From: Verrucomicrobiota bacterium
GTDB lineage: Bacteria; Verrucomicrobiota; Verrucomicrobiia; Limisphaerales; UBA9464
NCBI GenBank assembly: GCA_017309115.1
Contig: JAFLEF010000001.1
Span: forward strand, 1 to 64,000
Direction of reading: 5' to 3'
DNA length: 64,000 nt
Shown in pieces: positions 3,505-28,817 of this stretch. The notes below the pieces were generated by a model that worked only from the letters and a program-made list of their open reading frames with translations, searched no databases and was not told the origin of the DNA. Made by a program: the position numbers and the translations under genes. Numbering within the stretch: the first letter of the stretch is position 1; each line of letters begins with the position of its first letter.

Positions 3505-4095
3505 TTACGTTTGTGTTTCAACTTTTCCAGGGCCATCGGCACTGTTTGATGATGGTCGCGGGATATTCGTGATTTCCATCTTGAGCGGACTCTGGCCCGA
3601 AAGCACCTTTAACCACAACTTACGCGTAGCAGCCTGCTCAAACTCCAAGTCACCGTGAGCTATTGGTGAGTAAACACCCTTTTTTAATTGGACTCGATCA
3701 AACTGAAAATGGACGTCCTGTGAAATTGAATACAGAAGATTCACAAAAAGTTCGTCGCTCTTTGAGGACCAGACCGACAAATCCCTTTCGTCCACCTTTG
3801 TATTTAAGTGATCGAGATACTCCTTCCAGCTATCCAGGACAACCTGTTCCGCTTTAGATCGGCGTTTAAATCCAAAAAATGGGGATCCATAAAAAACTAG
3901 GTCAATCATGTTCAAAGCTTGAACATGCTCGGCTGATACCCGTGCGGCACGAGTGGCCATCAGCGTATGAAACAGCCAAGACTTTCGCCCCCGGCGCTCA
4001 CGGGCACGCTCGATTGCCTTCTGTGCCTGCACCGCAAGTACAGGCCCCATGAAGGTGGCTGAAATCATCAATACGTCGTTTAGTTGCATGATCAA
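3505..4095 (-). CDS. DUF6680-like membrane-anchored protein, last gene of the defence operon
   Basis: A 196-residue protein with a hydrophobic N-terminus (VLMISATFMGPVLAVQAQ) followed by a basic stretch (ERARERRGRKSW), then LMATRAARVSAEHVQALNMI and FYGS. This arrangement resembles the DUF6680 family as I remember it. The probable topology is one N-terminal membrane helix with a cytoplasmic body. It lies 30 bases after brxL on the same strand, so it is likely the terminal cistron. M3 (MQLNDVL) is an alternative start. The biochemical role is unknown. A link to phage defence is inferred only from position. Confidence 0.6.
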   Translation of the reverse strand: MIMQLNDVLMISATFMGPVLAVQAQKAIERARERRGRKSWLFHTLMATRAARVSAEHVQALNMIDLVFYGSPFFGFKRRSKAEQVVLDSWKEYLDHLNTKVDERDLSVWSSKSDELFVNLLYSISQDVHFQFDRVQLKKGVYSPIAHGDLEFEQAATRKLWLKVLSGQSPLKMEITNIPRPSSNSADGPGKVETQT

Positions 4096-4125
4096 CTCTT
4101 CCTTATCGCAGTTTTGAGATAGACG

Positions 4126-6198
4126 TCATTCTGCCAACGCCTTGAAAAAGGCGTCGCTAGGCTCGCTGTAGAACTCGATATTGATTTTGGTCCACAATTC
4201 GTCCGGTAGTTCGTTCAGCTGCCGGCGCGCGGCCACTGGCATCAGGAGCACCGCCGCCTGCTTCTCGATGGCGATTTCTACCAATGCTACGGCGTTCGGC
4301 AGCATTTCCAAGGAGCCGCCCAAGTTTAGTGAGCCGACCACGATGAGCCCACCGCGCGTGCTTCGTTCTAGCAGTGCTCCCGCCAGCGCGATGAGAACCG
4401 GTAGGCCCATACCACCGCCACTTTTGTCGTTATCCATCGCCCGCATCTGCACCGAAAACTCATGCGTGCGCGGGTCGCGGTCGCCCACAAGTTTCTTAGC
4501 CAGCGAATAGAGATTCTGCTCGCCCACCTTCACGCTTTCCTTGAATCCTGGCGGGGCGGGCGTGTTTAGAACACGCACTCCCGCACCTGGCCCGGTCGCG
4601 ACCTCGATGCGATACAGACCCGGCCCCGCTTCGGTCGTCCCCGGCGAAATTGCCCACACCTGGCCGGGCGGCAGGGGATCGCTCTCAATCGCTTCGTCAC
4701 TGTGCAACTCCGGCGTCGCGACGAATTGCTCCACCCCCTCCGTTCCGAGCGTGTAGCTGAAGTGCGTGTTGCGAAACTCGCTTTTGAGGCAGCGTTTTTG
4801 CTGCTCCTTCACCCGTCGCCGCGATTCCAGCGCCATGCGGACGATGACTTCCAAGTCTTGGTCGGAAATCTCCATTTCCGGGTCTGGGAACAGGAGCTTT
4901 GCCATTCCGCTAACCGTTTTGTTCACGGCCTCGATGTCGCGTCCGCTCAATGCGCCCCCAAGGTGCACGCGACCTTGCATCACCGACACCCGGCTGCTCG
5001 TGCGCATCTTTGTCCAGCACTCGCTGAGGAAATCGCTTACCAATCCAAAATGATTCGTCAGGTGGATGTTCGGATTCAGTTTCGGAAAATCCCAGCCCGG
5101 GACGTAGGCGTGGATGCGGTCATGGAACGCAGTGTCGTCGCGCATTTCCGGCGGCAGCGGGCTCAACAGGTGCCCGATCTTTTTCTGCTGCAAAACGTCC
5201 ACGTCGAAGTTTCCGACCATCACCACGCCACCCTCGGCACGGATGCTCTCCTTGCCGCGCGAGAATTCGCCCGACGCCATGTAGCCCTTGAGGATGTTCA
5301 CGCCATCTTTCTGGTCGAACGACACTCCGGACACTTCATCGAAGCACACCACGTCGTAATGGCAGACCAGGCCGCGTTGACCACTTGCATTGTTTACGAA
5401 CATCTTCGCCACGGTCGCCTTGCCGCCAGAAATGAGATGCGAGTACGGCGAGATCTGCTGAAACAGGTGACTCTTACCGGTGCCTCGCGGCCCGAGTTCC
5501 ACCATGTTGTAATTGCGCTCCACAAAAGGCAGCATGCGCAACAATACTACCAGCTTGGCGCGGTCGGTGAGTTCGGTCGGTTCAAGTCCGATGGAACGGA
5601 TGAGGAAGTTGCGCCATTGTACCGTAGTGAATCGGCGACGCCCTCTCGCCAACACTTCCAACGCCTCTGATTTGGAGAGCTGGATCGGCCGCAATGCCTC
5701 GATGGAAAACGGACGTCCACCGTTTTCCTCAGCGATGACCGCGTCGTAACCCAGCGTCACCTCCGCGTAGAAGCCATCCGTCAACATCCGCTCGTGTTCC
5801 TTCACCAGCGTGTCGCCGATGCGCACGTCCTTCAGTGCGAGGCTTGGCAATTCTGCCACGTAGCAATCGTTCTTTGCGTCCAGTCGCGCCCGCACAATGT
5901 CGATCAACTTTACGGAGCCGGTTTCGCGCGCCTTTGACTTGAACAGCTCTTCCTGGCCAGTGCGGACGGTTCGGTTGTTCAATTGCTGCTCGACGATTTG
6001 CAGCCCTTCCCGGATCTCGCCTTCGTCAACCGTCGCGCAATACCGGCCCAGGAGGAACTCCACGACATACGTTGGCACTGGATATTGCCGGCTGTATTTC
6101 CGCACCAAGTCTTTGCGCACCAGATAGCCATCGAAGGCTGACGCCGCCAACTTGTCCAATTCGTCCAATTGCATGCTCATATTCTCAGCTTTCTCCAA
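4126..6198 (-). CDS. brxL: BrxL, BREX AAA+ Lon-like ATPase
   Basis: A 690-residue protein, the usual BrxL length. BrxL is a ring-forming AAA+ DNA-binding ATPase needed for phage exclusion in type 1 BREX. The N-terminal ~200 residues form the BrxL-specific DNA-binding part. Walker A (GPRGTGKSH) lies near 236-244 and Walker B (VVCFDEVSG) near 283-291. The last ~100 residues are Lon-protease-like (SGGGMGLPVLIALAGALL). The positions where Lon has its catalytic Ser and Lys read Gly (GMG) and GGSLEM, so proteolysis looks unlikely. It overlaps the end of pglZ by 14 bases. M7 or M9 are possible alternative starts. Confidence 0.92.
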   Translation of the reverse strand: MEKAENMSMQLDELDKLAASAFDGYLVRKDLVRKYSRQYPVPTYVVEFLLGRYCATVDEGEIREGLQIVEQQLNNRTVRTGQEELFKSKARETGSVKLIDIVRARLDAKNDCYVAELPSLALKDVRIGDTLVKEHERMLTDGFYAEVTLGYDAVIAEENGGRPFSIEALRPIQLSKSEALEVLARGRRRFTTVQWRNFLIRSIGLEPTELTDRAKLVVLLRMLPFVERNYNMVELGPRGTGKSHLFQQISPYSHLISGGKATVAKMFVNNASGQRGLVCHYDVVCFDEVSGVSFDQKDGVNILKGYMASGEFSRGKESIRAEGGVVMVGNFDVDVLQQKKIGHLLSPLPPEMRDDTAFHDRIHAYVPGWDFPKLNPNIHLTNHFGLVSDFLSECWTKMRTSSRVSVMQGRVHLGGALSGRDIEAVNKTVSGMAKLLFPDPEMEISDQDLEVIVRMALESRRRVKEQQKRCLKSEFRNTHFSYTLGTEGVEQFVATPELHSDEAIESDPLPPGQVWAISPGTTEAGPGLYRIEVATGPGAGVRVLNTPAPPGFKESVKVGEQNLYSLAKKLVGDRDPRTHEFSVQMRAMDNDKSGGGMGLPVLIALAGALLERSTRGGLIVVGSLNLGGSLEMLPNAVALVEIAIEKQAAVLLMPVAARRQLNELPDELWTKINIEFYSEPSDAFFKALAE

Positions 6199-8533
6199 TA
6201 GTGGTGGCCTGCTTCGTCAATACGGTTCCGGACGCATCCAACAACACGACCACCGCCGCCGCACCGGCCTGTTCATCGTCGGGGATGATCAAAGAGGCTT
6301 GTCCCATCGCATCAGGCGCCTTCGGCGCGGACGCCAGCGACGTGTCGGGGGCATTCGCCTTGGTGCGTATGTCCACCGTCACCCCAGCCATCGGCGTCTC
6401 CAGCGTTACGCGGCAACGCAGCCGTTGCCATTCGACGTTCTTGATCCGAGCCGTCACCGGCGCAGCCTCTTTCGAGGGTTGGATGGTGAGCATCGGGATC
6501 AGGCACTCTTGCACGCTTAAACCACCGTGCGCGTAACACACCCCGGACACGAACGCCGTGATGTCCGGCGCAATCGCCGCCTCGGCCGAGGAATTCCAAA
6601 ACCATCCGACCTTCGGCACCGAGACTTTGGATTGCCCTCGAATCGCCGCGCATCGCGCCCACCGGCTCTCGACGAGGTAGCCCGGCAAATCCGTCTTTGG
6701 TAGCCCCCCTGGAACCAAGAGCCAGCCATGGTCTGTGATCACGCGCACCGTGCGCCATCCGGCATCCAACAATTCCGTGACCCGCTCCAAGATGCCGTCG
6801 AGTTCCTCGGCGACCAAGTTGGCCAGGCTTAGCTGCAAATCATGGCCACGCCGGTCAATCTGCGCGCATTCCGTCCACGCCTTGCCGCTCGCATCGCCCG
6901 TTTCCCCCGCGCCGAGGAATTGATAGCCTGCGTCCTCCAGCAATTTGCGGAACCGCGCCGTGTTCAGCTCCTGTCCGCTCGCCTTGATGGATGGCGTGAA
7001 ATTGTCCGGTAGCATCATCCCGCCCTGCAACAAACCGGCCACCGGCGATACGGCGGGCTTCGCCGTGGCTGTCACCGTCGGAGTGCCTGCCCAGCGTCGG
7101 TCCAATGCCACTCTGAAACCGCGCGCTTCGCACAACGCCCGCAACTCCTGGCCGAGGTCAAACCGTAGTCCGTCCGCGAACACGAGACATTCACCCAAGT
7201 TCGCCTCGATCATTGGTTGCTGGCCCGCACCGCCGAACGGTGTCTTGGCCGCGAGTTGCTGGAACAATTCCGCCGCTGATCGCAGCCACGGCAGGTAAAG
7301 CGCCCGTGCTGCCGCTTGGATCGCCGCCCGGTCTTGATTCGATTTTCCTTCAGCCAACGCCCGCACCAGCATCAGGTCCACTTCGTAGCCGCCGCCCTCG
7401 TAATTCTTCGCCACGTCCTCAAGGCTGGCCCCGTTCAGGGCTCGTCCTGCCTTGCTGGCGAGGACGGCGAGAATCTCCAACGCCTGTGCTTGTGGACTGC
7501 GTCCCATCTTGGCCCAGACCCAATTCCGTCGTCGGCTGTGTTCGGCTTCCAGCTTCAGCACGGCCTCGCGAGCAGTCGGTCCGTCCGCTACTGCCAACTC
7601 CAGAAGAGCCGCCCGTAGTCGCGCCTCGGCCTTGTCGTTTTCATCTGGCCACGATTCCGGGTTGAAGACCAATTCCGAAGGTTTGGCACGCGTCAGCAAG
7701 TCCGGAAGCGCCTTGTAGAGCACGGGCGCTTCGGAGAAGCGGTCCCAGAGCTGTTGCCACGGCGCGTCCTTGCGAAGTCCCAGTCGTTCAGCCGCACCGA
7801 CCGCGCCCTCAGCGTCCGGGTCGAAGCCGTATTCCTTTTTGCAGCGGGACCGAAAGGCGTGCCACTTACCTTCACCCCAATTCTCCCGAGCGCCTTTCGG
7901 ATCATTCATCCACTCCAGCAGGTCGCGCGGCTGGTCACCGACCATGAGCTTGTCGAAATCTTCCGCCTCCAGCCGCTTGCCCTCCAGGTGCGGGATGGGG
8001 GTTTCCGCAAGCACCGGTAAAGCACTGTGCAGGGAATTGCGCGTGCCGTCGTCACGGGACACGTCCAGCCCCAGTCCATCGTCCGAGATCAGAAATGCTT
8101 CCACCGTCCAGTCCTTGCCGTTGCGTTGTGTCCAAACGGCACCGCGATACTGAAGCTCCACCAAAGGTTGAAGCAGGACGGGACAGTCCCCCGCCGCTCT
8201 CAGCGTCTGCCGACTCACGTTCGGCAAATACACGATGGGCACAACATCCTTGCCCAAGCCCACGTCAATCGTCCGTCCCACGATGCACTTCAGCCAGACC
8301 GCAGGCCCGGTGCGCCTTTCTGGGTCGTAGGTGCCGTGCACCACGAGTTGAGGCAGCCGCTCTTGCAATTTCTTGACCATCGGCTGCCATTGGCCGTCGG
8401 CATCCGTCCAGAGCACCGCCGCCGGCCTTTCCTCGACGCCGGCATGATGCCGAGCGGCCACCAGCAGGGAAGCCTCGACGGCTTGCAGCAAGGTCGCGGG
8501 CCTTCTGGGCTTGCTCCAATAGCTGCTGCTCAT
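6185..8533 (-). CDS. pglZ: PglZ, BREX alkaline-phosphatase-superfamily protein (type B-like)
   Basis: A 782-residue PglZ. The family shares the alkaline-phosphatase metal-binding fold and is essential to all BREX systems, although its substrate is not settled. Metal-site motifs are VFADGLRFD (451-459) and ITDHGW (599-604). The N-terminal half is helical and Trp-rich, and the last ~100 residues form a beta-rich domain. Length and layout fit the group databases call BREX-1 PglZ type B. The start ATG overlaps the preceding AlbA_2 gene stop as ATGA, implying coupled translation. Confidence 0.9.
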   Translation of the reverse strand: MSSSYWSKPRRPATLLQAVEASLLVAARHHAGVEERPAAVLWTDADGQWQPMVKKLQERLPQLVVHGTYDPERRTGPAVWLKCIVGRTIDVGLGKDVVPIVYLPNVSRQTLRAAGDCPVLLQPLVELQYRGAVWTQRNGKDWTVEAFLISDDGLGLDVSRDDGTRNSLHSALPVLAETPIPHLEGKRLEAEDFDKLMVGDQPRDLLEWMNDPKGARENWGEGKWHAFRSRCKKEYGFDPDAEGAVGAAERLGLRKDAPWQQLWDRFSEAPVLYKALPDLLTRAKPSELVFNPESWPDENDKAEARLRAALLELAVADGPTAREAVLKLEAEHSRRRNWVWAKMGRSPQAQALEILAVLASKAGRALNGASLEDVAKNYEGGGYEVDLMLVRALAEGKSNQDRAAIQAAARALYLPWLRSAAELFQQLAAKTPFGGAGQQPMIEANLGECLVFADGLRFDLGQELRALCEARGFRVALDRRWAGTPTVTATAKPAVSPVAGLLQGGMMLPDNFTPSIKASGQELNTARFRKLLEDAGYQFLGAGETGDASGKAWTECAQIDRRGHDLQLSLANLVAEELDGILERVTELLDAGWRTVRVITDHGWLLVPGGLPKTDLPGYLVESRWARCAAIRGQSKVSVPKVGWFWNSSAEAAIAPDITAFVSGVCYAHGGLSVQECLIPMLTIQPSKEAAPVTARIKNVEWQRLRCRVTLETPMAGVTVDIRTKANAPDTSLASAPKAPDAMGQASLIIPDDEQAGAAAVVVLLDASGTVLTKQATTIGES

Positions 8534-9768
8534 GAAGCGGCGGCAAAAATGGTGAGCAAAAGTTCGGAATCATCAATCAGACGATACTCAGGCCTCCTAC
8601 CGGAAAGCCCCTCGCTCTCACGAATGATGATCGGCACGCCGTCTCCTCGCTTCTCCATATAGTAAGTACGTTGGACGTTCCCGGCTACTCCGGGGACAGG
8701 ACATTCCGCCAGCAGACTGGTGATCAGTTCATTTCGCGTCGCCTGTCGGAGCGGTAGGCTTTCTACAGTGACGGTGTTGGGAAGCGCCCCGGGTGAATAC
8801 AGCTCCAATCGGTCGTCAAAGATGAAAAAGCGAATCTTCGAGCCATAAATGGAATAGTCTCGATGAGCGACCGCATTGACAACCGCTTCAAATACCGCTC
8901 GCTCGCTGAACTGCGGCTTTTCAATTCTGTGAGGCTCCTTGTTCGCCGCGATTGTCTGATTGCGCTTGAGAAAGAGCATTGCTTGCCGAATTTGCTCATC
9001 AAGCGGGCCGCGAATCTGCTGAGCGTCGTGTTGGTAGTTCGAGTCCTGAAGCTTGCCCCGGTAACGGACGGCTTCGATGAAAGCTCCGGTCAGATGTTTA
9101 TCCGGAAACTCTGAGCACATCAACACACCGGCCACCGAAGCTCGAATGTTGCCCGATTCGTCGCGGCGAAGGAGATTGCGCTTGAGGAGGACGGTTTCGC
9201 CAGGCTCGTTTGAGCGTGAAGTGAATCTCTCGTAGAGTGGCACGGAGAGATCGGCGACGGTCGTGTTAGGCACGGGCTGTTCCTCGAACCGAATGATCCG
9301 CGTCTGACTGCGTTGCTGGCCGAGCCGTATCAGAAGGTCCGTTGGCATCTCTCGTTTGGAGCTTCCGAGCCGCCGAAAGTAGCCATGGGACGTCTTATGC
9401 ACAAAAAGGCTTTGGGGTACATCCACCTTGATGATCGCTCGGTTTGTGCCGCCTGAATCCGGCAGTTCCATACGAATTATCTCGGCAGTCAGAGACGGCT
9501 GGATCGAATCGTTGCACACCTCTCGAACTAGAGCTTCAATTGTGTCAAGCCGGTCCAATGGAATTCCCAATATTTCTCTCGTGACGTCGTCAACTCCCAG
9601 AACCAAAACACCCCCGTTGCTGTTCGCGAGAGCCGCCAGTTCATCGGCCAGTTCACTCCGGCCCGGACCATCCACCTTCTGTCCCTTGAACGTCACGGTC
9701 TTCAGTTCGAGGACCGAATCTTCTCCGAGTCGGATTTTGTCCAATAACTCCTGCTTTGAATCAAACAT
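8530..9768 (-). CDS. AlbA_2 (Schlafen-like) domain protein, putative transcriptional regulator or defence factor
   Basis: A 412-residue protein of the COG2865 type. Residues ~15-130 form the AlbA_2 fold (LELKTVTFKG, LAALANSNGGVLVLGV). The middle and C-terminal part resembles the GHKL ATP-binding-like segment common in these proteins (VFEAVVNAVAHRDYS). Members are described as regulators, and several sit in defence islands, some linked to tRNA or RNA targeting through the Schlafen relationship. It overlaps the PHP-ATPase gene by 8 bases and pglZ by 4, so it is co-translated with both. That makes it part of the operon and not a passenger, but whether it regulates or acts as effector is unknown. 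Confidence 0.8.
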   Translation of the reverse strand: MFDSKQELLDKIRLGEDSVLELKTVTFKGQKVDGPGRSELADELAALANSNGGVLVLGVDDVTREILGIPLDRLDTIEALVREVCNDSIQPSLTAEIIRMELPDSGGTNRAIIKVDVPQSLFVHKTSHGYFRRLGSSKREMPTDLLIRLGQQRSQTRIIRFEEQPVPNTTVADLSVPLYERFTSRSNEPGETVLLKRNLLRRDESGNIRASVAGVLMCSEFPDKHLTGAFIEAVRYRGKLQDSNYQHDAQQIRGPLDEQIRQAMLFLKRNQTIAANKEPHRIEKPQFSERAVFEAVVNAVAHRDYSIYGSKIRFFIFDDRLELYSPGALPNTVTVESLPLRQATRNELITSLLAECPVPGVAGNVQRTYYMEKRGDGVPIIIRESEGLSGRRPEYRLIDDSELLLTIFAAAS

Positions 9769-12562
9769 AACTGCCCCCTTCCCCGATACGGCGATAACGG
9801 AGCGCGAAAGCCTCTCGGCCGCCCTCCATCACGCGGCAAATCTCTTCGCGCAGTTTTGGATCCTGCAAACTGCCTCGCTCGATCACCTGGCATTGCCCTC
9901 CGCGGTTATCCATGGCAAACACCAACTCAGCATCGCCGTTCACCACGATGTTTGGATTGTGTGTCACCACAATGATCTGTCTTCGCAGCTTATTACTCCT
10001 TAGCTGGCGGACGATAAGGTCGTAGATCAGGTGGTTGTCCAAATCATCCTCCGGCTGATCCAAGACAATGGGTTCGTCCCCATACGCCATTAGGAAGGCA
10101 AGAATAGCTGCGGTCTTTTGTCCAGGCGACGCCTGCTGGATGGGTCGGAACGATTGTCCGTCCGCCTTCTGACTGTAGGCAACCGCCAGGGTGTCCTCCG
10201 GGAACCAGCAGCGCAGGCGATCGAGAACTTCAGCGCCGACTTTTGTGAGGAACGTTTGAAACCTTTGTCCAAATTCGCGAATCGGGTTTCCCTGCGCAGC
10301 ATCGAGAAGGGATTGCTTTGCTTTAGCCAGACGCTCCTCCACGATTCTTCCGGCGGCATTGGCGTCTTCGGGGAGGTCCCTGTAAATCTCCGCAACGAAG
10401 CCAGTGCACTCATCTTCGGCTAGAATGTCGCCAGCGAACGCATCGTCCTCCCGATTCACTAGCCGGCGGAACTGGGCCTCAACATTCCTTCGTTGCCGAC
10501 CGTATGGCTGAAGCGAGATCTGCACCAACGGATTGTCTTTGAGCACACGCGTTAGGAACTCGCTCCGGCGCGTACTTAATTCCCGGCGTAGCACCAACAG
10601 ACGCCCCAGACTCTCATTCGCCTCTTGGAGCACGTTCTCAAGCGTGACATGAATTTCGACAATAGACTTCTGCTTCTGCTCCAGGATCTGCCGGCGTTGG
10701 ACCAGAGAGGAATACTCGGAAGGATCGCCTGCGCCGTATCCTCTGAGGGTCTCCGTCAACGATCGGTAGGCTTCTTCAGACTGTTGTGCGGCTAGTTCCC
10801 AAATGGAGTCTTTCACTACTCCCTGCCAACGCACATATTCTCTCGCCGCTGCATCAGCCTGATTCATCAACGCTTTCTGGATCTCTTTCAAACGTTGCAG
10901 CGTGTTTTCAACCCGGTCGAACATATCAAAGCCCTCGATACTCTGTTCGAAGAGCGTCCTATCCACGTCTGCTGGAAGAATGTCCTCCGCGAACTCACGA
11001 ATGCGTCTTTCCACGGCCCCCACCTCATTGCCAAACTGCTGCACGATACGGCGCTGCCGTTGATGTTGCTGGTATTCGCGCAACACTTTCGCGTGCTCGG
11101 CTCCCTCAAAGATTTTCAGCTTCGACAAAACATCGTCGAGTTCGCCGCGGATCTTGGACTCCTCGCCGAGCCTCGCGGTGAGTTCGCGCGATTTGGCCAT
11201 CAGCGAGAGGTAACGAGCCTGTTCCTGTTTCCAATTCTCGTCCCAGTCCCCGCGACGGACGTCCTTGGATTCGTCGACCACGCGAAGGAGCGCCTCGCTT
11301 TCCTGAGCCATTGAAAACACCTGTCTCTGGCTGAAAATGCGGATACGAAACCGTTCGGGAATATCGCCCCGCGCCTGGATCCACTCTCCGTCCCGGAACT
11401 CCTCAATCGAAGGCGTGGCGGCCGTTGCTCCAGCGTACTCCCAGTTGAGTCGATACCGTGCAGGCCCTTTCCGGTAAATCACATTGATCCGGGTGGCCTG
11501 CAACAGTGCGCCTTGGTCCTCTCTTCCTCTCGGAACCCTGGAAAAATCCTGAAACTCTACCGCCAGCTTTCCGGTAAGTTCCTTCTCCCGCCGTAGTGCC
11601 AACCGCAGGAACTCTACTACCGACGATTTGCCGCTGCCACGTCCCCCGATGAGCGCATTAAATTGGGGGTTGAATTGAAGACGCAACGGCTTCGGGCGGC
11701 CGCAATAGCGAGCCTGGTCGATGGAGATTTCTTCAATAATGTTCTCAGCATATTGCCTCGGATCCTCCGGGGCCGCGTCGCTTCGCCGAATGGACATGGG
11801 AGCGCCGTCGAGCAGTGCGAGTCGGACCCCGTCCAGGGTAGGCGTATCCATCTTGACCCAGGTGAAGTGGGAGCCGGGATAACGCTGCCCAATCGTGCCG
11901 GAAGGATGGTGAGCGTCCGAACCGACCACTTCTGTCCATTTCCGCTTCCGTTGTTCATAGATCGCCGGTTTGCCAATAACAGGTTTGCACACCTCGATGG
12001 CCGCGATATCTTTGTTATCAACCAATTGCTGCAAGGTCGCCCCGGTCAACTTCGCAAACGCTCCTGCCTGCGGCTCATCTACATGGGCCAGAATAGGAAG
12101 TGCTCCGGCTTTGGCGATCTCCCTAACGACTTCGAGAAGAGTTTTTTCAGTGACCTCGGCACTCTCGCCAGCAGTTCCGTGATAGCCACAGGCCCCAAGT
12201 AGTCGCAAAACATCCGCAGTCGTCTTCTCGGCGCCAAGGATCCCAAGCACATGAACACCACCGTTGACGGATATCTCGACACCGGGGAAAAGTGTCATTG
12301 GGCGATACTCGGCATGAGTCTTGAGCTCTCCGAGCGCTCGCTTGAGCGAATCCACCCACGCCCCCGTGTTGTGGTCAGTGATGGCGACGCAGTCGATGCC
12401 AGCGCGCATGTAGGCCAGCAGCCATTCGGCCTGCGTCGTCTGCAAGCGGATCCCGGCTTGGTTTTGGCCTTTGCCGTAATCCAGTGAGGCAGGCGTATGG
12501 GCGTGGAAATCAAACTTCCACCAGCGCGCGCCCGGAAAGTCGAACGTAGTCGTGCTCATCAT
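9761..12562 (-). CDS. trlF: TrlF-like PHP-domain/SMC-type ATPase
   Basis: About 933 residues fusing an N-terminal PHP phosphoesterase to an SMC/ABC-like ATPase. The PHP motifs are FDFHAHT, AITDHN, GVEIS and GSDAHH, which supply the metal ligands. Walker A (GGRGSGKSS) follows near residue 306. A long coiled coil comes next, then the Walker B/D-loop region (IVLDQPEDDLDNH) and the switch His (VVTHNPN) near the C-terminus. This matches the TrlF family. I chose the ATG 12 bases after the pglX stop; an upstream in-frame ATG inside pglX would add 24 residues with no PHP homology. TrlF-like proteins are thought to cut nucleic acid upon infection, which is inferred here. Confidence 0.85.
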   Translation of the reverse strand: MMSTTTFDFPGARWWKFDFHAHTPASLDYGKGQNQAGIRLQTTQAEWLLAYMRAGIDCVAITDHNTGAWVDSLKRALGELKTHAEYRPMTLFPGVEISVNGGVHVLGILGAEKTTADVLRLLGACGYHGTAGESAEVTEKTLLEVVREIAKAGALPILAHVDEPQAGAFAKLTGATLQQLVDNKDIAAIEVCKPVIGKPAIYEQRKRKWTEVVGSDAHHPSGTIGQRYPGSHFTWVKMDTPTLDGVRLALLDGAPMSIRRSDAAPEDPRQYAENIIEEISIDQARYCGRPKPLRLQFNPQFNALIGGRGSGKSSVVEFLRLALRREKELTGKLAVEFQDFSRVPRGREDQGALLQATRINVIYRKGPARYRLNWEYAGATAATPSIEEFRDGEWIQARGDIPERFRIRIFSQRQVFSMAQESEALLRVVDESKDVRRGDWDENWKQEQARYLSLMAKSRELTARLGEESKIRGELDDVLSKLKIFEGAEHAKVLREYQQHQRQRRIVQQFGNEVGAVERRIREFAEDILPADVDRTLFEQSIEGFDMFDRVENTLQRLKEIQKALMNQADAAAREYVRWQGVVKDSIWELAAQQSEEAYRSLTETLRGYGAGDPSEYSSLVQRRQILEQKQKSIVEIHVTLENVLQEANESLGRLLVLRRELSTRRSEFLTRVLKDNPLVQISLQPYGRQRRNVEAQFRRLVNREDDAFAGDILAEDECTGFVAEIYRDLPEDANAAGRIVEERLAKAKQSLLDAAQGNPIREFGQRFQTFLTKVGAEVLDRLRCWFPEDTLAVAYSQKADGQSFRPIQQASPGQKTAAILAFLMAYGDEPIVLDQPEDDLDNHLIYDLIVRQLRSNKLRRQIIVVTHNPNIVVNGDAELVFAMDNRGGQCQVIERGSLQDPKLREEICRVMEGGREAFALRYRRIGEGGSYV

Positions 12563-12573
12563 TCGTCCCAGGT

Positions 12574-16008: not shown

Positions 16009-16010
16009 AA

Positions 16011-17075: not shown

Positions 17076-17737
17076 AACTGCACCGGCCCGTTATTCTCTT
17101 CCGGCCATCGATTGTATTTCGTCTCCGCCTGTTTGTAGGTCATCCGCTCTCGACCGATCCGCACCAGCTTCATTGTGCCGATTGTCTGTCGTCCACGCCC
17201 CGAGAAGTAATCACCCTCCAGCGTCTTACCATCCGGTGAGAGCCGAACGTGATTGAAACCCACGTGGGCGTTCATTGTGTCGGTCGCGTGGTGGCGCGGC
17301 GTATTGGTGTATTGGAACGTCAATCCCTCGGTTGGCCCCGGCGTCACGTTCACTGCGGCCATTACGGAGTAGGAACGCGACTTCTCAAAATCGAACTCGA
17401 CGCAGAGGCTCGACCACGTCTGATGGAGATGCATCATTCCGAATACCTTCGTGCCCTCTCCGTGGTTCGAGCTTAATTCCCCGAACCAAGTGCCGCTGAA
17501 GTCGGGGATTTCGGAGAGCTGGAGCGGGCCGATCCGCCACTTCCACCCATGCTGGTTGTAGAGCCAATAAACCAGCCCGTAGGCGGACATGGTGGATGGC
17601 GTTTCCACCCACCACGGCACATGAATCTTGCGCCACGCCACGAACGCCGAGTAGGCGAACGCCACCACCACGGCCAAGCCGGCAATGACCCAAGGGGCCA
17701 CCTTCCGATCGGCGCTGTCGCTGGCGTAGGAGTGCAT
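17072..17737 (-). CDS. cap15: Cap15-like CBASS membrane effector (SMODS-associating 2TM beta-barrel)
   Basis: A 221-residue protein. A strong membrane helix (residues ~13-35, VIAGLAVVVAFAYSAFVAW) and a weaker second one (~47-63) are followed by a beta-rich domain opening with IPDFSGTWFGEL and holding repeated beta hairpins to the end. This is the layout of Cap15: two N-terminal helices and a lipocalin-like barrel that binds a cyclic nucleotide and oligomerises to damage the inner membrane. It starts 3 bases after the CD-NTase stop, the expected partner gene. Identification rests on architecture, the SGTW motif and position. Confidence 0.8.
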   Translation of the reverse strand: MHSYASDSADRKVAPWVIAGLAVVVAFAYSAFVAWRKIHVPWWVETPSTMSAYGLVYWLYNQHGWKWRIGPLQLSEIPDFSGTWFGELSSNHGEGTKVFGMMHLHQTWSSLCVEFDFEKSRSYSVMAAVNVTPGPTEGLTFQYTNTPRHHATDTMNAHVGFNHVRLSPDGKTLEGDYFSGRGRQTIGTMKLVRIGRERMTYKQAETKYNRWPEENNGPVQL

Positions 17738-17740
17738 GTT

Positions 17741-18631
17741 TCAGGATTCCTTCCAGAGTTGGATGATGGCGCTCAAAAACATGTCGCACTTGTCGGACGG
17801 CCACTGGACGTTGCTTGTCCCCAGCAGCGCGTGCTGTTGGTGCGCACACTTCAGCTTGGAGCGGTCAGTCTGGCAGAGCCAGTTGATGCTATTGATGAGG
17901 GTGTCTTGATAGCTGGTCCCAAACTTGTCGTTCGGCACGTTCCACATCATCCCTTCCAGATAGTAGGACGGAGCGATTTCTTTGGTGATTTTGCCGTCGG
18001 CCACCAGCTTGCTCCGCATGTTCTTCAGGATTCGCACCATCGGCTTGAACCAACTGCTGGTCGCTTGGTGTTTCGCCGTGCAGTTGTCCGAGTGCAGTCT
18101 TGGATAGTTGATGATTCGCCCGCTGGACGTGGTGGGAAAGGTTATGCCCAGCACATATTCCTGGTCGCTCGGGTTGATGAACCGGGTGTAACGGCGGAAC
18201 TCGTAACAGGCCACCACGTCCGCACTCCGTCTCGACCCGTTCGCCTTGATCTGGATGGCCTTGTTTCCGGGCGTCACGTTGGCGGCCTCAAACGCCCTGG
18301 TCAGGCGGTTTACGACCCCGGTCCTGAACTCGGTAAAGCTGTAGGTCGCGCTGCTGAACGCTTGCTGGAACGCCGCCTGTTGCTCCGATGGCAGTGCGCT
18401 CACGTCATACCCGTAGATCGAGTCCAGCCGGATGACGGTGTCCACGTCGCTTTCAGCGTAGATGTTCGTGGCGTTCCCGTAAGACCCTTGGAGGAAAACC
18501 TCAAAGCTCTTGTCCTTGTAGGCCGCCGCTTGATCTAGCAACGCCGAGCGAACCGTCTGATAGGTGGCGCTGGATTGCTGGATAGATCCCTGATGCGACC
18601 ACGTTTCGAGTTGTGATTCAGAAATGGGCAT
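17741..18631 (-). CDS. CD-NTase (CBASS cyclic-oligonucleotide synthase)
   Basis: A 296-residue nucleotidyltransferase of the SMODS/CD-NTase type. The active-site signature is GSYGNATNIYAESDVDTVI: GS at 49-50 and Asp62/Asp64. A third acidic residue lies in RRSADVVACYEF (D138). All are present, so it should be active. Such enzymes sense infection and make cyclic di- or trinucleotides that open the adjacent effector. No Cap2/Cap3 ubiquitin-like accessory genes are present, so with Cap15 this is a minimal two-gene (type I) CBASS. It lies 15 bases after brxC on the same strand. The product nucleotide cannot be read from sequence. Confidence 0.88.
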   Translation of the reverse strand: MPISESQLETWSHQGSIQQSSATYQTVRSALLDQAAAYKDKSFEVFLQGSYGNATNIYAESDVDTVIRLDSIYGYDVSALPSEQQAAFQQAFSSATYSFTEFRTGVVNRLTRAFEAANVTPGNKAIQIKANGSRRSADVVACYEFRRYTRFINPSDQEYVLGITFPTTSSGRIINYPRLHSDNCTAKHQATSSWFKPMVRILKNMRSKLVADGKITKEIAPSYYLEGMMWNVPNDKFGTSYQDTLINSINWLCQTDRSKLKCAHQQHALLGTSNVQWPSDKCDMFLSAIIQLWKES

Positions 18632-18646
18632 ATCGCACTCCTGGAT

Positions 18647-21600
18647 TTATCCTACCACCACCGGCCCTTCCTTCAGTTTGGCGACCAGCGTCGTTTCCTG
18701 CGTCGCGAGCCACGCCTTCACTTCCGCTTCCGTGCGGAGCGTGTCGCTCTTGAGCGTCACGTATTGCGTCTCGGGTTCGAGCAGCTTCGCCGCCTTGCGC
18801 GCCGCGTTCTGGAATCGGGCCGTGAGTGCCGCTGTCTTGTCGTTCCAGCTTGCGACCGGTGTGTTCTGGAGGGCCGAAAGGAGTTGTTCGTCCGAGCCAA
18901 CTTCCAGATCGGGCACCGATGAGATGCCTTCCTCACCCATGATGCTGATTCGCTGCTGCCCGGAAATCTTCTGCCAGGCATCGCTCGACTCCAGTTCCTT
19001 GAGCAGTTCGGCGTGTCGGCTGGCGAAACCGGTATGCGCGCCCGTCACCGCCGTCCGCAAGGCGTGGGCGGCCTGTTTGATCATCGGCGGCACATGGTCG
19101 GAGTTGTCGAGTAGCAGCCGACCATCGAGGATACCCTTTGCAGCCGCCTCCACCTCAGCCAACGCCCCGACCCCAGTGCCAACGCTCAGGAACTTCTGCA
19201 ACTCCTCCCACTCGGGAACGCGTTTGGCCGCGAGATCCGCCTGCTTCTTCCACTTGGCGACCTCGGCTTTGAGGAAATCAGCCTGGCCCAACAGCCCCTT
19301 AAGTCGGTCGTTACCCATCCGGGCGCGCAAGTCGGTCAACTGGGTCGTTTTCGGTGGTTCCGGCAGAGGAGCCGCGCCCCCGGCCTCACCGGCCAGTGAC
19401 TCCGCCAGTGCCAGATACTCGCCGGACTTGATCTCCAAATCGTCGCTGGCCTTGGCGGAAATGCCGGCATCCTGGAACAGTCCCCGCAGCTTCAGCTTGT
19501 CCGGCCCGGTCAGAATGATGGATTCGGTGCGGAACTCGGTCTTGGAAATCTTGTTCTGGTCGAGCTGCCCTGCCGCAAGTGCCTGGCCGTTGTGGCGCGC
19601 CAACAAATGAGCGCCCGAGTGGAGGGCGATGATGGCGCCGTCCACCGCATCCTGCGGCCATCCGTAGGAATTCGCAGCGAAATGCTTTCGGAGTTCTCGG
19701 CCTTCGATGCCGCTACCTACCTTGATCAGGATTTCACGGCAGACGGGATGCTGCTCCGTCGCCCCGTCGAAATCAACGGCGCGCAGGGGTGAGTCATCCC
19801 CATTACGGGCGCGGTTGATGACACTTGTCCACCCCTTGTGGTCCGCCTCGCCGAAGCGCGGGAAAAGTCGAGCCAATGCGTCGGTCGCGCCATCGCGAAC
19901 CTTTTCGGCCAGGGTGAGGTTGAACAGTTCGGTGCCACCGCCTTTGTAAACCTTCGCGCCACTGGCGACTTGGGCGATGAGTTGGTCTCGCGCGCGCTCG
20001 GCGTCACCCAACCGCGTGCTCATGCTGCTGCGAGCCTCTTCGCCTTCGCGCGTGCTTGGAACACCCTTTCCGTCAATCGTCCCTCGGGCGGCCTCGGCAC
20101 GGATGATCTGTTCACGCAATTCTTGCGCCGACGCTTTGGGAACAAACACGAACAGGATCGGGCTGTCGGTCCCAGCTGCACGCGCTGCATCCACCACGTT
20201 CTTCTGTGAAGCGTTCCACTCGTTGCGCACCCACACCGGCACGTTTTGGCCGGTTGCGTCGGGAGGCTCGGGCGCGAAGTGCAGCACCAGTTCGCGGGGT
20301 TCGTTGCTCGCGCCCTGTTTCAGCCGCACCGTGTTGATTTCCTTTTGCAGCGCAGCTTGCAGTAGCGCGTCGCGCTTCTGATGCACCACCGATTCGTTGC
20401 TGCCGATCTGCGTCTGGCGGTTGCGGAACTCCTTGTCCCACTCCTGCGATTCCTTGGTCTGGAGATTATACTCCTCGCCATCTTTCAGCAGGATTCCTTC
20501 GTCCACGAGTTTCTGGAGCGCGAGGGGCACGTCCTTGCGTAGCTTCGTGCCATCGTTGGCCAGGTCGCTGACCAAAAGGTCGGCCAGCATTTCCGCAGTC
20601 GCCCGCACCCCGCAGTCCGCACCGCTGGTGCGGGGGAGTTTGCGAATCAGGAAAATCAGACCGCAGAGTCGGGCAGATAGCCGGTCCTGCTTGCGGATGG
20701 TCTCCTCCAACTCCCGCAGAAGCACTCCTTGCTGCACCATACCGGCCTGCAACTGCTCAAACATGAAATCGGCCGGCACAACCGTTCCAAATGGCAGCTC
20801 AGCCAAGCCACGGAGCGCTTCGTGGATGATTTGGAGCTGGGCTCGCAACATCGCGCTCGTGCCGGCTGGGTCCACCGCCCGAAGCACATGCTCCCAAAAA
20901 CGACGACGGACCGGCAGGATGGGATAGTCGTCCGCCAGAACGTCCTTGTCCTCCGTGCGCGTCGCAATCGCCGTGGAGGATAGTTGGCGGGCAATCTCCC
21001 CTGCGTGCGACGCGAGCAGTTGGCGCACGGCCTCAATCTTCTCGGGGCGCTTCGCCAGAAGCACCCGTCGCGTCACGTTTTCCACATCCGCATCGGACAG
21101 TTCCACCGAGATTGTGAACCGAGCCCGCATCCAACTGAACTCCGGCACATCGGAACTCAGTGCGCTTTGGCCCGCTCCCACCAGCAAGAGCCGGGAGTCG
21201 AGTTGCTTGCCCAACGCCTCCGCGACCTCCACAACCTCGCGGGTGCGCTCCAGATTGTTTCGGACGTAAATCTGCACCTCGTCCAACACCAGGATGGTGA
21301 GCGGCAGACCGTCTTTGCCGCCCAACACTTCCCGAGTCATGCGCAAGAACTCGGCCGTCGAGATGTCCGTCGGCTGCGAGAACTCTTTTGTCAGCAGGGT
21401 GCGCAGCCCATCCGCATTGCCCAGTTGAGGATCAGCCTTGAGCAGTGCTGCCCGCAGCACTGGACTCACGAACAGATTGTTCAGTTCGCGCATGAACTCT
21501 TTGCCACTGGCCTCGACGTCTTTCCTTACCGCGTCGTAGAAGCCGTTGTTCTTCAGATACAGGCAGAACTTCGCGAGACTGTATTTCTCCGGAAGTCCGC

Positions 21601-22075
21601 AGGAGCGCAGGATAATTCCGAGGATGGTAAGCCGGGTGCTTTCCGCGCTACCTGACGGCAACGCGCCAAAGGCGGCGCGAAGGCCACCAGCGCGGCGACC
21701 GCTCGTGTCCAGCTCCTTGAGCGCCGCCTCGATCTCTTCGGGCAACCTCGGCACGATGCTGCGCGCGGTCGCCCCGTCGGGAAACTCAGTGTTCACCCAC
21801 AAGTGACCGATCATTTTCAGCAGGTGCGATTTGCCGCTGCCGTAGAAGCCGCTGACCCACGCGCCGCTCTGATCCGTGCCACCCACCCGTCCCAGAAACG
21901 CTTCGAGAATGCGCAACATGCCATCAGCGTATTGTCCTTCGCAGACAAAGTTGGAGAGTTCCTCGCGCAGGGTGGTCCACTCTTGGGGCGTCATCCCTTC
22001 GTTGATGCGGGCCTGCCCATTGTTCATGAGCTTGGCGGTCGCCGGATCGCGGAGGAATATTTCTCGGTTCTTCAT
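18647..22075 (-). CDS. brxC: BrxC, BREX P-loop ATPase
   Basis: 1142 residues, typical for BrxC/PglY, a large ATPase present in most BREX types. Walker A is GFYGSGKSH (76-84), and the Walker B-like segment is LTILVLDEVQIY (around 264-268). The C-terminal half is helical, with coiled-coil stretches (LADLRARMGNDRLKGLLGQ). The start MKNREIFLRDP is characteristic. It lies 9 bases after brxB. In type 1 systems pglX normally comes next, whereas here three CBASS/TIR genes intervene. Confidence 0.92.
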   Translation of the reverse strand: MKNREIFLRDPATAKLMNNGQARINEGMTPQEWTTLREELSNFVCEGQYADGMLRILEAFLGRVGGTDQSGAWVSGFYGSGKSHLLKMIGHLWVNTEFPDGATARSIVPRLPEEIEAALKELDTSGRRAGGLRAAFGALPSGSAESTRLTILGIILRSCGLPEKYSLAKFCLYLKNNGFYDAVRKDVEASGKEFMRELNNLFVSPVLRAALLKADPQLGNADGLRTLLTKEFSQPTDISTAEFLRMTREVLGGKDGLPLTILVLDEVQIYVRNNLERTREVVEVAEALGKQLDSRLLLVGAGQSALSSDVPEFSWMRARFTISVELSDADVENVTRRVLLAKRPEKIEAVRQLLASHAGEIARQLSSTAIATRTEDKDVLADDYPILPVRRRFWEHVLRAVDPAGTSAMLRAQLQIIHEALRGLAELPFGTVVPADFMFEQLQAGMVQQGVLLRELEETIRKQDRLSARLCGLIFLIRKLPRTSGADCGVRATAEMLADLLVSDLANDGTKLRKDVPLALQKLVDEGILLKDGEEYNLQTKESQEWDKEFRNRQTQIGSNESVVHQKRDALLQAALQKEINTVRLKQGASNEPRELVLHFAPEPPDATGQNVPVWVRNEWNASQKNVVDAARAAGTDSPILFVFVPKASAQELREQIIRAEAARGTIDGKGVPSTREGEEARSSMSTRLGDAERARDQLIAQVASGAKVYKGGGTELFNLTLAEKVRDGATDALARLFPRFGEADHKGWTSVINRARNGDDSPLRAVDFDGATEQHPVCREILIKVGSGIEGRELRKHFAANSYGWPQDAVDGAIIALHSGAHLLARHNGQALAAGQLDQNKISKTEFRTESIILTGPDKLKLRGLFQDAGISAKASDDLEIKSGEYLALAESLAGEAGGAAPLPEPPKTTQLTDLRARMGNDRLKGLLGQADFLKAEVAKWKKQADLAAKRVPEWEELQKFLSVGTGVGALAEVEAAAKGILDGRLLLDNSDHVPPMIKQAAHALRTAVTGAHTGFASRHAELLKELESSDAWQKISGQQRISIMGEEGISSVPDLEVGSDEQLLSALQNTPVASWNDKTAALTARFQNAARKAAKLLEPETQYVTLKSDTLRTEAEVKAWLATQETTLVAKLKEGPVVVG

Positions 22076-22084
22076 GGTATTTCC

Positions 22085-22639
22085 TTACTTGCTCGCCAAG
22101 CCGGTGATCGGTGTGGCGAGGTAGTTCCAACCGTCACGGGCATCCAACAGCCGGTAAGCGTTTTGGTCATATGCTCCCGGAAAAAACACCACCAAGCGGC
22201 CACGAATATGGCTCTCGATTTTCTGCAAAACGAAGTGCAGACGGGTGAATCCGTAAAGCCCCGCCACGCCGTGCACGGCGAGGACGTTGTCGTCGCTGTC
22301 ATTGCCGGCCAGGAGCGCCTCGCGAAGGCGGGCGGCGCAGGCATCGGCAAACTCGCTATCGAATTTCAGGGCGAGGTCCTCCGGATGGTGGAAGTATTCC
22401 TCCCGATACTCCTCGGCGGCCATCCATTCAGGAAATGCATTGGTCAAATCGAGTTCGCGCCAGCCATGCCCAGCAGCCTTGGTCCGGTGTTCGAACTCCT
22501 TCAGTTTTACTAGAAGCCGCCGCTCCTCCTCCTTCGGATACACAACGAATATGATCCGTTGAGCTCCGGCCAGATTTCGCTGCCAGGGCGCGGAAATGTG
22601 CCGCTCGTATTGTTCGGCGAGATCGTCAATGCGCGACAC
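22085..22639 (-). CDS. brxB: BrxB-like protein (DUF1788)
   Basis: A 184-residue protein between the BrxA-like gene and brxC, the usual BrxB place. It has the DUF1788 pattern: an N-terminal basic helix (MSRIDDLAEQYERHI), a strand IIFVVYPKEEERRL, and near the C-terminus a VVFFPGAYDQNAYRLL block before a short tail. No catalytic motif is known for the family, which is required for BREX methylation or exclusion in studied systems. Its start overlaps the end of the upstream gene by 14 bases. Confidence 0.82.
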   Translation of the reverse strand: MSRIDDLAEQYERHISAPWQRNLAGAQRIIFVVYPKEEERRLLVKLKEFEHRTKAAGHGWRELDLTNAFPEWMAAEEYREEYFHHPEDLALKFDSEFADACAARLREALLAGNDSDDNVLAVHGVAGLYGFTRLHFVLQKIESHIRGRLVVFFPGAYDQNAYRLLDARDGWNYLATPITGLASK

Positions 22640-23516
22640 GGGAATCCTTTATTTCTTGCGAGGTAAGGAGCGTGGTAAAACCGACTTCGATTACGTCGCC
22701 AGCCGATCGTAAATCCAAGCCGCCAAGGCGCTTCGCTTCTGCCGCCAGGTTCCTCAGTTCACCCGGCGGAACATCCAGCACTCGTGCCCACGTTGTTTCA
22801 AACAATCGCCCCCCTCGCGATCCCTCCAGATAGCCAAGCAACAACGCATAGGCCGTTGCTAGTGGCGTAGGGCGGATCATTCGCCGGAACTTACGTGCAC
22901 GCCCCTGAAGGTGGCCACTCTGCGTCCAAGAGGACGAAGCATTTCGCACCACTTTGTCGAGCGTTGCGTCATTCATCCGGGTGCCGACGGCGGTGCGTAC
23001 AGCGTCTGTGATTTTCTGTCGGGACAGTTCCTCGCCCCCAGTCATGGCGAGAATCGGTTCAGCCGTATCGCGCAGTAGGGGATCCCGTGCAAGGGAACAC
23101 AGAAGCGCCAGGACAGGGCGCCCCGGCACATCGTCCAGCCAGAAGCGACGCAGGACTCGAAACAGCGGAACCGTTGGTTCGAGGGCGTAAAGTTCGGTCA
23201 GGTGTTGGGCCGTGATCTTGCGGTTAGCCCCTGTCTGCTTGCCGAGAGCATTTTGTTCGATAATCGCGGTCAAATAATCGGACCGACTTGCATCGACAGG
23301 AACCGAATCCAGCAATGTCGAAAACTCCTCCAACATGATGGTTCGGCTGGAATGAGTTCCAATCGCCCCACCCTTGAAGCCCAGTTTCCGCGATAAGCTT
23401 TCGGCTAACACTCCAATACGACTAGCAGGGTGTACGGAAACCGTCAAGTCCACCGGCAAACTAGCCGGCGTGTAGAATTTCAGTGTGGAAGACGGCGGTT
23501 CTAGGCAAACCAGCAC
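22626..23516 (-). CDS. brxA: BrxA-like protein, first gene of the BREX operon
   Basis: A 296-residue protein preceding brxB. BrxA (DUF1819, usually ~200 residues) is a small helical DNA-binding protein. The central part here, ENALGKQTGANRKITAQHL and LLCSLARDPLLRDTAEPIL, resembles the conserved core of that family by eye. The extra ~80 residues may be an over-long N-terminus, since internal starts are possible, or a real extension. The first ~35 residues (STLKFYTPASLPVDLTV) look beta-rich and unlike BrxA. Assignment relies heavily on gene order. Confidence 0.6.
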   Translation of the reverse strand: MLVCLEPPSSTLKFYTPASLPVDLTVSVHPASRIGVLAESLSRKLGFKGGAIGTHSSRTIMLEEFSTLLDSVPVDASRSDYLTAIIEQNALGKQTGANRKITAQHLTELYALEPTVPLFRVLRRFWLDDVPGRPVLALLCSLARDPLLRDTAEPILAMTGGEELSRQKITDAVRTAVGTRMNDATLDKVVRNASSSWTQSGHLQGRARKFRRMIRPTPLATAYALLLGYLEGSRGGRLFETTWARVLDVPPGELRNLAAEAKRLGGLDLRSAGDVIEVGFTTLLTSQEIKDSRVAH

Positions 23517-27244: not shown

Positions 27245-27299
27245 GCACGGATTAATGCTGATCCGTACTTTCTGGCAAACCCATTGATAGAAGAGTAGG

Positions 27300-27587
27300 C
27301 CGAGGTAGAAATCCTTGCCATCAAAGGTGATCAGCTTCTGCCGTTCCAGGAACGCGCGGAACACCAAATCAGGGGTCATCTTTTCTTCCTCGCGCAGGGC
27401 CTTCAGCCGTCGCCACGGTTTGTCGGGCCGAAAAAATCAACTCCCGCACTTCCGTTAGGAGTCCTTTCGCGCCGGGTTTAACCGGCAAGGACGCACTTTT
27501 TGCCAGGGCGGGCTTTCGTTTGGTGGCGACGAGGATCCGGGGCTTTCGGTCCTCGATCTCGTTCCATTCCTCGTTGGGCTTCAGCAA
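27300..27587 (-). pseudogene. Internally deleted DUF1016 (YhcG-like) nuclease relic
   Basis: Two pieces match the intact DUF1016 gene 2 kb away. The first (27587 to ~27405) gives KPALAKSASLPVKPGAKGLL and then SARQTVATA. It then jumps, out of frame, to ALREEEKMTPDLVF and FLERQKLITFDGKDFYLGLL. About 200 codons between these are missing, along with a second short loss just after DLVF. The C-terminal catalytic ExK part is also gone, replaced by the HNH gene. It cannot encode a working nuclease. Confidence 0.75.
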
Positions 27588-28225: not shown

Positions 28226-28362
28226 GTTTGGTTCACGGGTTCGCCTTCAAAAGCCATGCTGGCGGCTACGCTCGCAGGCACTTGTGCCCAGGCCTGCTCG
28301 CGACGCTTCTCCGGAGGGAGCGCCTGCCATGCCTGCATGATCGCGAGCCAATTCACTTCCAA
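28144..28362 (-). CDS. Small antitoxin with anti-Fic inhibitory motif
   Basis: A 72-residue protein just before the Fic gene. It contains SMAFEG, which fits the (S/T)xxxE(G/N) inhibitory helix of class I Fic antitoxins such as VbhA; the Glu blocks productive ATP binding in the toxin. The preceding WLAIMQAWQALPPEKR is helical. Gene order (antitoxin before toxin, overlapping) supports a VbhA/VbhT-like pair. Confidence 0.75.
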   Translation of the reverse strand: MEVNWLAIMQAWQALPPEKRREQAWAQVPASVAASMAFEGEPVNQTWLEELHRRTEIPGMSNPAAASSATRN

Positions 28363-28815: not shown

Positions 28816-28817
28816 AG

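Follow-up and report, generated by a model that had tools for sequence, protein, structure and literature searches.

We found that the type 1 bacteriophage exclusion (BREX) operon of a Limisphaerales bacterium very probably consists of a conserved backbone with two exchangeable cargo slots flanking pglX. The operon, which its gene content places in the PglZ type B branch, lies in the window, the whole 64,000-nucleotide stretch analysed here (GenBank assembly GCA_017309115.1, contig JAFLEF010000001.1, positions 1 to 64,000). Slot 1 runs from the brxC stop to the pglX start (16009..18646, minus strand) and slot 2 from the pglX stop to the pglZ start (8534..12573, minus strand). A preliminary description of this DNA had reported twelve tightly packed genes in one direction, with foreign genes between core genes: a CD-NTase, Cap15 and a TIR protein at the brxC–pglX joint, and TrlF and an AlbA_2 protein at the pglX–pglZ joint. 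Profile searches bear this out, including the gene order then given; all twelve genes lie on the minus strand, from 23516 down to 3505, and are separated in transcript order by −14 to +30 bp, the one exception being a 61-bp overlap of pglX and trlF. Two exchangeable cargo positions are a better reading of this locus than a designed multi-part system.

To compare junctions across BREX loci, we assembled regions from several sources. BrxC alignment matched 9 of 387 genomes of the phylum, 21 of 321 of the order and 16 of 384 of the class (overlapping sets that include the window's own genome), from which 30 regions were taken; 247 plasmid records had a BrxC match, of which 7 covered at least 80% of the query, and those 7 regions, two of them unannotated, were used. 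PglX alignment found at least 550 relatives among genome contigs, of which the 80 best were kept, and matched 12 IMG/VR contigs, of which 10 were used. Short, distant or non-BREX loci were omitted before counting (L001, L002, L006-L014, L022, L023, L114-L119 and L131-L136, with L114 and L115 being distant IMG/VR matches), and dropping 7 duplicates from the 131 loci chosen left 124, window included. L149 is the same locus as L034, from a Limisphaerales metagenome-assembled genome (MAG).

Inserts of at least 300 bp, the threshold of the survey, occurred at 47 of 118 brxC–pglX joints and 71 of 94 pglX–pglZ joints, and at none of the 100 brxA–brxB, 108 brxB–brxC and 83 pglZ–brxL joints. Counted per brxC lineage (70% identity), the figures were 30/65 for brxC–pglX, 48/59 for pglX–pglZ, and 0/56, 0/60 and 0/53 for brxA–brxB, brxB–brxC and pglZ–brxL. 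Within lineages that had two or more measured members, junction lengths differed by at least 300 bp in 14 of 21 comparisons at brxC–pglX and 15 of 17 at pglX–pglZ, against 0/19, 0/21 and 0/14 at the three other joints in the same order. Among the 94 loci in which both slots could be measured, 33 had both filled, 38 slot 2 only and 3 slot 1 only. As a small control, we inspected six BREX loci on plasmids with lower-ranking BrxC matches, four of which name pglZ, all of type A. The brxA-brxB-brxC block was closed in all six, and pglZ-brxL in all four where both genes are listed; extra genes occupy slot 1 in Polaromonas (an Xre/RES pair) and Azotobacter, and slot 2 in Azotobacter. The Polaromonas locus also has extra genes after pglX, with pglZ beyond the stretch, and the Sphingopyxis gene table lacks pglZ. 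The backbone blocks brxA-brxB-brxC and pglZ-brxL thus stay closed, and foreign immune genes come and go only at the two joints beside pglX, with boundaries that coincide with the neighbouring stop and start codons or lie only a few bases from them.

Comparing the window with its nearest relatives revealed slot 1 in four states among five loci. In an uncultured Verrucomicrobiaceae MAG (L061, an 8.6-kb contig), 91% DNA identity with the window extends over the part of brxC on that contig, the CD-NTase gene and cap15, with the two CD-NTase proteins 77% identical; an unrelated 320-aa gene (L061 4646-5605) then takes the place of the TIR gene, and 87% similarity resumes at the pglX ATG, the central region of pglX being unaligned. 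A relative of this gene, 54% identical, lies directly before pglX in L121 (11785-12753). The L061 gene has no Pfam match and no relatives in IMG/VR; its predicted structure, with a mean predicted local distance difference test (pLDDT) score of 42, was not used. L138, from the same order and with a BrxC protein 92% identical, matches the window through the end of brxC and resumes 5 bases ahead of the pglX start codon; between these points lies a 1.1-kb insert encoding an NYN-domain protein. Slot 1 is empty in L139 and L140 (BrxC 84% identical), where the brxC TGA overlaps the pglX ATG. In L138, the TGATT before pglX (6569-6573) equals the stop and spacer of the window's TIR gene, though the locus has no TIR gene; it is perhaps the scar of a lost TIR cassette, or chance.

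We then characterized the slot 1 cargo of the window. The first gene encodes a clade E type CD-NTase (17741..18631, minus strand; NF053871, 424 bits, cut-off 350; PADLOC, 411 bits) whose closest solved sequence is 6e0k, that is, RmCdnE. G49-S50, D62, D64, D138 and N175 are invariant across five aligned proteins, and we take D62, D64 and D138 to be the catalytic acids. N175 and C262 align with N166 and C252 of RmCdnE, a 3',3'-cUA maker in which the roles of both residues have been described (PMC10442399), so the product is probably a uridine-containing cyclic dinucleotide, 3',3'-cUA. The adjacent Cap15 gene (17072..17737, minus strand) matches Cap15_CD_rec (96.2 bits, cut-off 31.2), the PADLOC two-transmembrane (2TM) effector (182 bits) and PDB 7n34 (E 1.9e-14), with Cap15_TM at 26.1 bits, just below its cut-off of 28.2. 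Two sequence features expected of a type I-B CBASS (cyclic-oligonucleotide-based antiphage signalling system), a CD-NTase with intact acids and beside it a Cap15 that combines two transmembrane helices with a ligand-binding barrel, are both found here. In another host, a two-gene CdnE-Cap15 system of this type breaks the membrane of infected cells (PMC10686824); it shares the two-gene module with the window and is flanked there by a type I restriction system, not embedded in BREX. By analogy, the CdnE dinucleotide of slot 1 would lead Cap15 to break the membrane. Panoptes-like decoy signalling through a Cap15-like protein was set aside, the synthase here being CdnE-like.

The third slot 1 gene (16011..17075, minus strand; TIR_2, 34.2 bits) encodes a TIR domain followed by a helical C-terminal part. 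PDLC03825 matches residues 9-166 of 354 with 106 bits, and the AlphaFold2 model (mean pLDDT 76) finds SpbK 9phb as its best PDB match (E 2.9e-6, TMt 0.75). Glu93, presumably catalytic, is invariant in the family alignment, and we infer NADase activity. The domain is of the SpbK type, whereas the domain order is not: positions 145-305 of the 308-position SpbK profile match residues 9-166, placing at the N terminus a TIR domain that the SpbK model has at its C-terminal end, and we therefore call the protein only SpbK-like. A role as CBASS effector was rejected; the family adjoins pglX, and no CD-NTase was found in its loci L034, L122, L123 and L126, nor in L148 as far as that contig extends. The TIR protein would accordingly be expected to act independently of the CBASS pair.

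Slot 2 holds a TrlF-family protein with an SMC-like ATPase (9761..12634, minus strand) that exceeds the cut-off of the TrlF family ATPase model NF045780 (613 bits against 350) and reaches 574 bits with the NCBI Ppl model, below its cut-off of 1000, and 488 bits with PADLOC Ppl/TrlF. The N-terminal HxH, which we take to be a PHP-domain-type motif, is retained. The listed TTG start, responsible for the 61-bp overlap with pglX, is probably too early, because the TrlF models begin at residue 35; the likely start is an ATG at 12562, which leaves an 11-bp gap instead. The next gene (8530..9768, minus strand) joins AlbA_2 (Schlafen; 60.4 bits, cut-off 25.3) and HATPase_c_4 (67 bits, cut-off 26) in one protein; the Pfam scan listed no winged helix-turn-helix domain in it, no search having been aimed at one. 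A close link with BREX and related systems, spanning at least 1017 taxa, has been described for Schlafen RNases that carry a histidine-kinase-like domain at the C terminus (PMC12839542, Rakesh and Krishnan 2026), and the window's protein fits these auxiliary BREX RNases by its domain composition.

The preliminary description took the operon for one deliberate layered system, in which BREX, CBASS, TIR, TrlF and AlbA_2 would be selected as a set with a fixed fallback order. The composite operon is real and its parts recur; the full set does not behave as a unit, and its slots are exchangeable. In favour of a set, besides the single strand and tight gaps, some neighbours recur: nine loci, the window among them, have TrlF downstream of pglX (the others named being five in Pseudomonadota and two in Acidobacteriota), with pglZ behind it in eight, and AlbA_2 follows TrlF directly in eight of the nine, the IMG/VR locus L112 lacking it. 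Outside BREX, TrlF stood alone in both plasmid loci inspected, two of 1149 matching records. The window's TIR family also abuts pglX: in the five complete loci, 2, 8, 8, 9 and 18 bp separate the end of the TIR gene from the first PglX codon of the alignment; in a sixth, cut by a contig end, the TIR gene starts directly after brxC. Against selection as a set, the complete combination was seen once, slot 1 is different or empty in relatives with BrxC 84-97% identical, other TIR loci showed no CD-NTase, and L061 has the CBASS pair without the TIR gene. We therefore consider a fixed layered system unlikely. Insert-free relatives with no recurrence elsewhere had been named in the preliminary description as evidence against it; such relatives exist (L139 and L140 for slot 1), and recurrence was nevertheless found.

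That recurrence is uneven. The search proposed earlier, for brxC followed by CD-NTase and Cap15 and for pglX followed by trlF, succeeded for the second pair across several phyla; CdnE-Cap15 at the brxC–pglX joint was confined to the window and L061, and with 2 of 124 loci we rejected it as a conserved BREX component. CD-NTase relatives turned up in 4 further genomes of the phylum (387 examined), and the roughly 1.5 kb of flank around them contained no BREX gene; one of these (L013) has a weak Cap15 match after the CD-NTase. Nor was a BREX gene found beside the CD-NTase in 2 plasmid regions (50 records matched) or 10 IMG/VR loci. An Elusimicrobia BREX locus has a CD-NTase downstream of brxL (L057 20393-21277) that shares 45% identity with that of the window.

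Cargo as a whole is highly diverse. Together with 5 window queries, 210 cargo proteins formed 133 clusters, 105 of them singletons, numbers that are inflated because the slot open reading frame (ORF) picker also took shadow ORFs. The 126 representatives drawn from clusters that lack a window query gave matches that include GmrSD, DarT, SIR2, ThsB TIR, Fic, OLD-like, NYN and UvrD models, with ThsB-type TIR models matching representatives in both slots. They also matched AAA/SMC ATPase models from Gabija, Septu, HEC-01 and PARIS, several of these names being shared by the same 3-5 proteins in each set. The scan, run in two sets, yields totals of the 25 commonest families, not per-protein labels. 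The largest cluster is that of the window's AlbA_2 protein, with 26 members, of which slot 1 holds 8 and slot 2 the other 18; on the joined backbone tree described below it requires 14 changes for 18 carriers, so this cargo has been gained or lost repeatedly.

Such diversity is also what passive hitchhiking would produce, in which the two joints are simply the least harmful places for insertion and cargo has no functional tie to BREX. The abundance of singleton clusters is in line with this, as are the 20 of 94 loci with neither insert and the presence of inverted cargo or an insertion sequence: slot 2 of Deinococcus QL22 holds three annotated opposite-strand genes and that of Deinococcus NW-56 an IS3 transposase. 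Of slot ORFs of at least 90 aa, 205 of 261 lie on the operon strand, the remainder including shadow ORFs (for example in the window and L138); with the Deinococcus exceptions, cargo is thus usually, not always, fit for co-transcription. The repeated turnover of the AlbA_2 cluster argues against mere hitchhiking, and so does the fact that the window's TIR family was seen only in slot 1 and TrlF only downstream of pglX in the loci surveyed. We regard hitchhiking as a serious contender, if short of an even chance.

Exchange extends into pglX itself (12574..16008, minus strand), the adenine methyltransferase and specificity gene. PglX scores 294.5 bits with NF033452, the NCBI BREX-1 PglX model, below its cut-off of 500, yet 1537 bits with PADLOC, and its family profile matches solved BREX PglX/BrxX chains, which makes it a divergent PglX. 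Residues 478-481 read T-N-V-P, common to eight aligned PglX proteins; the usual adenine methyltransferase motif is of the N-P-P-Y type, which T-N-V-P replaces in these proteins. In the 74 loci where all five genes are complete, distances between pairs of sequences correlate among BrxB, BrxC, PglZ and BrxL (Spearman 0.65-0.90), PglX follows them less closely (0.43-0.58) and its recognition part hardly at all (0.02-0.05). The tree of the four joined backbone proteins splits 41 from 33 loci with local support 100, and replaced an earlier grouping by BrxC identity cut, which required 4 changes on the backbone tree and so did not form a proper clade. The split takes a single change on each of the BrxC, PglZ and BrxL trees and 2 on that of BrxB, low counts that are partly built in because these genes define it.

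Within PglX, discordance is concentrated in the inner segment. Residues 1-285 fit the split, with 2 changes (FastTree) or 1 (quick tree, branch support 75), and residues 800 to the end, with 4 or 5 changes, do not reject it (approximately unbiased [AU] test, p 0.226). Residues 285-570 need 17 changes, 8 of them forced by well-supported branches, and reject the split (log-likelihood lower by 588, AU p 2.9e-42; segment tests used LG+G4 without mixture). Pieces of BrxC gave 1-2 changes, and PglZ 1-285 alone 3. On PglX 285-570, the window's nearest rows are L026, L152, L033 and L032, all from the other backbone group. Since the inner part is discordant while both ends follow the backbone, we conclude that the inner catalytic part of PglX, which adjoins the recognition domain, has been exchanged across BREX lineages; this points to a way in which BREX may acquire a new DNA mark while the rest of the complex stays as it is. 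If pglX and its flanking cargo instead moved between operons as one block, whole-PglX distances should track the other genes less, as they do, and the methyltransferase part as a whole should reject the split, as it does (9-10 changes, AU p 0.016). The concordant behaviour of residues 1-285 and 800 to the end, with only 285-570 clearly discordant, makes block movement very improbable and largely refutes it for the deep split; this refutation does not extend to shallow whole-gene swaps.

The remaining backbone genes, all on the minus strand, are brxA (22626..23516, GTG start; PADLOC BrxA, 321 bits; no Pfam match at E 0.01 and no NCBIfam match at E 0.001), brxB (22085..22639; Pfam BrxB, 33 bits; PADLOC, 244 bits), brxC (18647..22075; NF033441, 714 bits, cut-off 400; PADLOC, 1381 bits), pglZ of type B (6185..8533; NF033450, 847 bits, cut-off 400; PADLOC, 932 bits) and brxL (4126..6198; Pfam BrxL_ATPase, 422 bits, and BrxL_N, 146 bits; PADLOC, 961 bits). 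A DUF6680 gene (3505..4095, minus strand; Pfam, 174.5 bits) ends the run; we rejected it as a recurrent component, as it occurs in the window only (1 of 69 loci with at least 700 bp after brxL). Adjacent genes overlap by 14 bp at brxA/brxB and pglZ/brxL, 8 bp at trlF/AlbA_2, and 4 bp at Cap15/TIR and AlbA_2/pglZ; the other gaps are 9 bp (brxB/brxC), 15 bp (brxC/CD-NTase), 3 bp (CD-NTase/Cap15), 2 bp (TIR/pglX) and 30 bp (brxL/DUF6680). Scanning for sigma-70 type consensus alone found one promoter-like site, on the opposite strand (5.0 expected), and there were 20 terminator-like sites against 22.1 expected.

Around the operon, the stretch 918-2050, about 1.5 kb beyond the operon end, has a RES-domain gene next to a weak, below-cut-off Xre/MbcA/ParS antitoxin match; an annotated Xre/RES pair is the slot 1 content of the Polaromonas control locus. 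Upstream on the same strand (26423-29903) are a weak HNH match, below cut-off, and a DUF1016/YhcG nuclease. A TrwC-type relaxase/helicase gene (34138-36993, plus strand, 273 bits), about 11 kb from the operon, suggests that the island is part of a plasmid or of an integrated conjugative element. At G000:C24:212757-213284 and 233056-234111 (L001, L136), the same genome has another PglZ-domain gene and, some 20 kb away from it, a paralogue (56% identical) of the TPR gene located ahead of the window operon; this region is possibly a second defence island.

Part of this arrangement is already known. Genes between BREX components occur in about 7000 of about 9000 genomes that have pglX and pglZ together, BrxU and PARIS among them (PMC11341690, Nat Commun 2024), at the same joint as slot 2; the accessible part of that paper holds no statement on the brxC–pglX joint, exclusion from other joints, CBASS there or base-exact alleles. 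Effectors within core loci, including OLD, HNH and REase, and the idea of a back-up layer are likewise published (PMC12839542), so that extra genes at pglX–pglZ and Schlafen or other effectors in BREX loci are not new; the main text of that paper lacks the words CD-NTase, SMODS, TIR, PHP and TrlF, and no slot rule was seen in the portion consulted. A two-gene pglX–pglZ indel between Salmonella StySA and E. coli HS BREX, with later acquisition proposed and divergence inside pglX (PMC9009780), concerns one slot in one pair of enterobacterial loci, whereas the window has two slots. DarTG2 embedded between hsdS and hsdR of a type I restriction operon (PMC12255303) resembles the window as one defence module within another, in a different host system; that paper names guilt-by-embedding and cites a preprint by Payne et al. 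(2024) on embedded defences that could hold part of the slot rule. The parts of PMC9122589 and PMC8565348 available contain nothing on BREX joints. The claim of an undescribed arrangement thus fails for pglX–pglZ genes and may hold for a CBASS or TIR gene within BREX, for slot 1 as an insertion site and for the closed-joint rule, none of which was found in the open-licence papers searched.

Several observations weigh against the two-slot reading or its generality. The 124 loci were gathered through similarity to PglX or BrxC, many are MAG contigs whose ends cut through slots, and the inflated cluster numbers and the Deinococcus inserts bear on it as well. Slot 1 CdnE-Cap15 is represented by two related loci. 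None of the 4 other genomes of the genus has a BrxC match, and a search there with the genes flanking the chromosomal site gave partial TPR matches only. The loci with neither insert count in particular against a back-up role for cargo.

Functionally, BREX would presumably act as the first line, marking host DNA, as expected of this BREX type by adenine methylation of a non-palindromic site, and blocking unmarked phage DNA, with one transcript likely spanning BREX and its mostly co-oriented cargo and with the encoded enzymes predicted to be active. From position and recurrence, cargo might then serve as a conditional, mostly abortive back-up should BREX fail or be blocked, a role that we consider possible rather than probable. 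More speculatively, the slots and the PglX exchange may be joined in a single picture, somewhat doubtful as it stands, in which type 1 BREX operons have an exchange bay at their centre: two cargo joints, constant to within a few bases, would flank pglX, the catalytic and target-recognition part of PglX would be swapped between distant lineages with conserved arms providing homology, and cargo would be kept since it is cued by BREX, being co-expressed and released or triggered on BREX inhibition. If so, each operon would pair a changeable DNA mark with a changeable suicide back-up. The two-slot architecture itself turns loose defence clustering near BREX into a testable rule of which joints accept cargo, which refuse it and what swaps, one that could be used to mine BREX loci for unknown immune genes, and the natural alleles on nearly the same backbone (empty, NYN and CdnE-Cap15-TIR) are suited to testing cooperation between BREX and its cargo.

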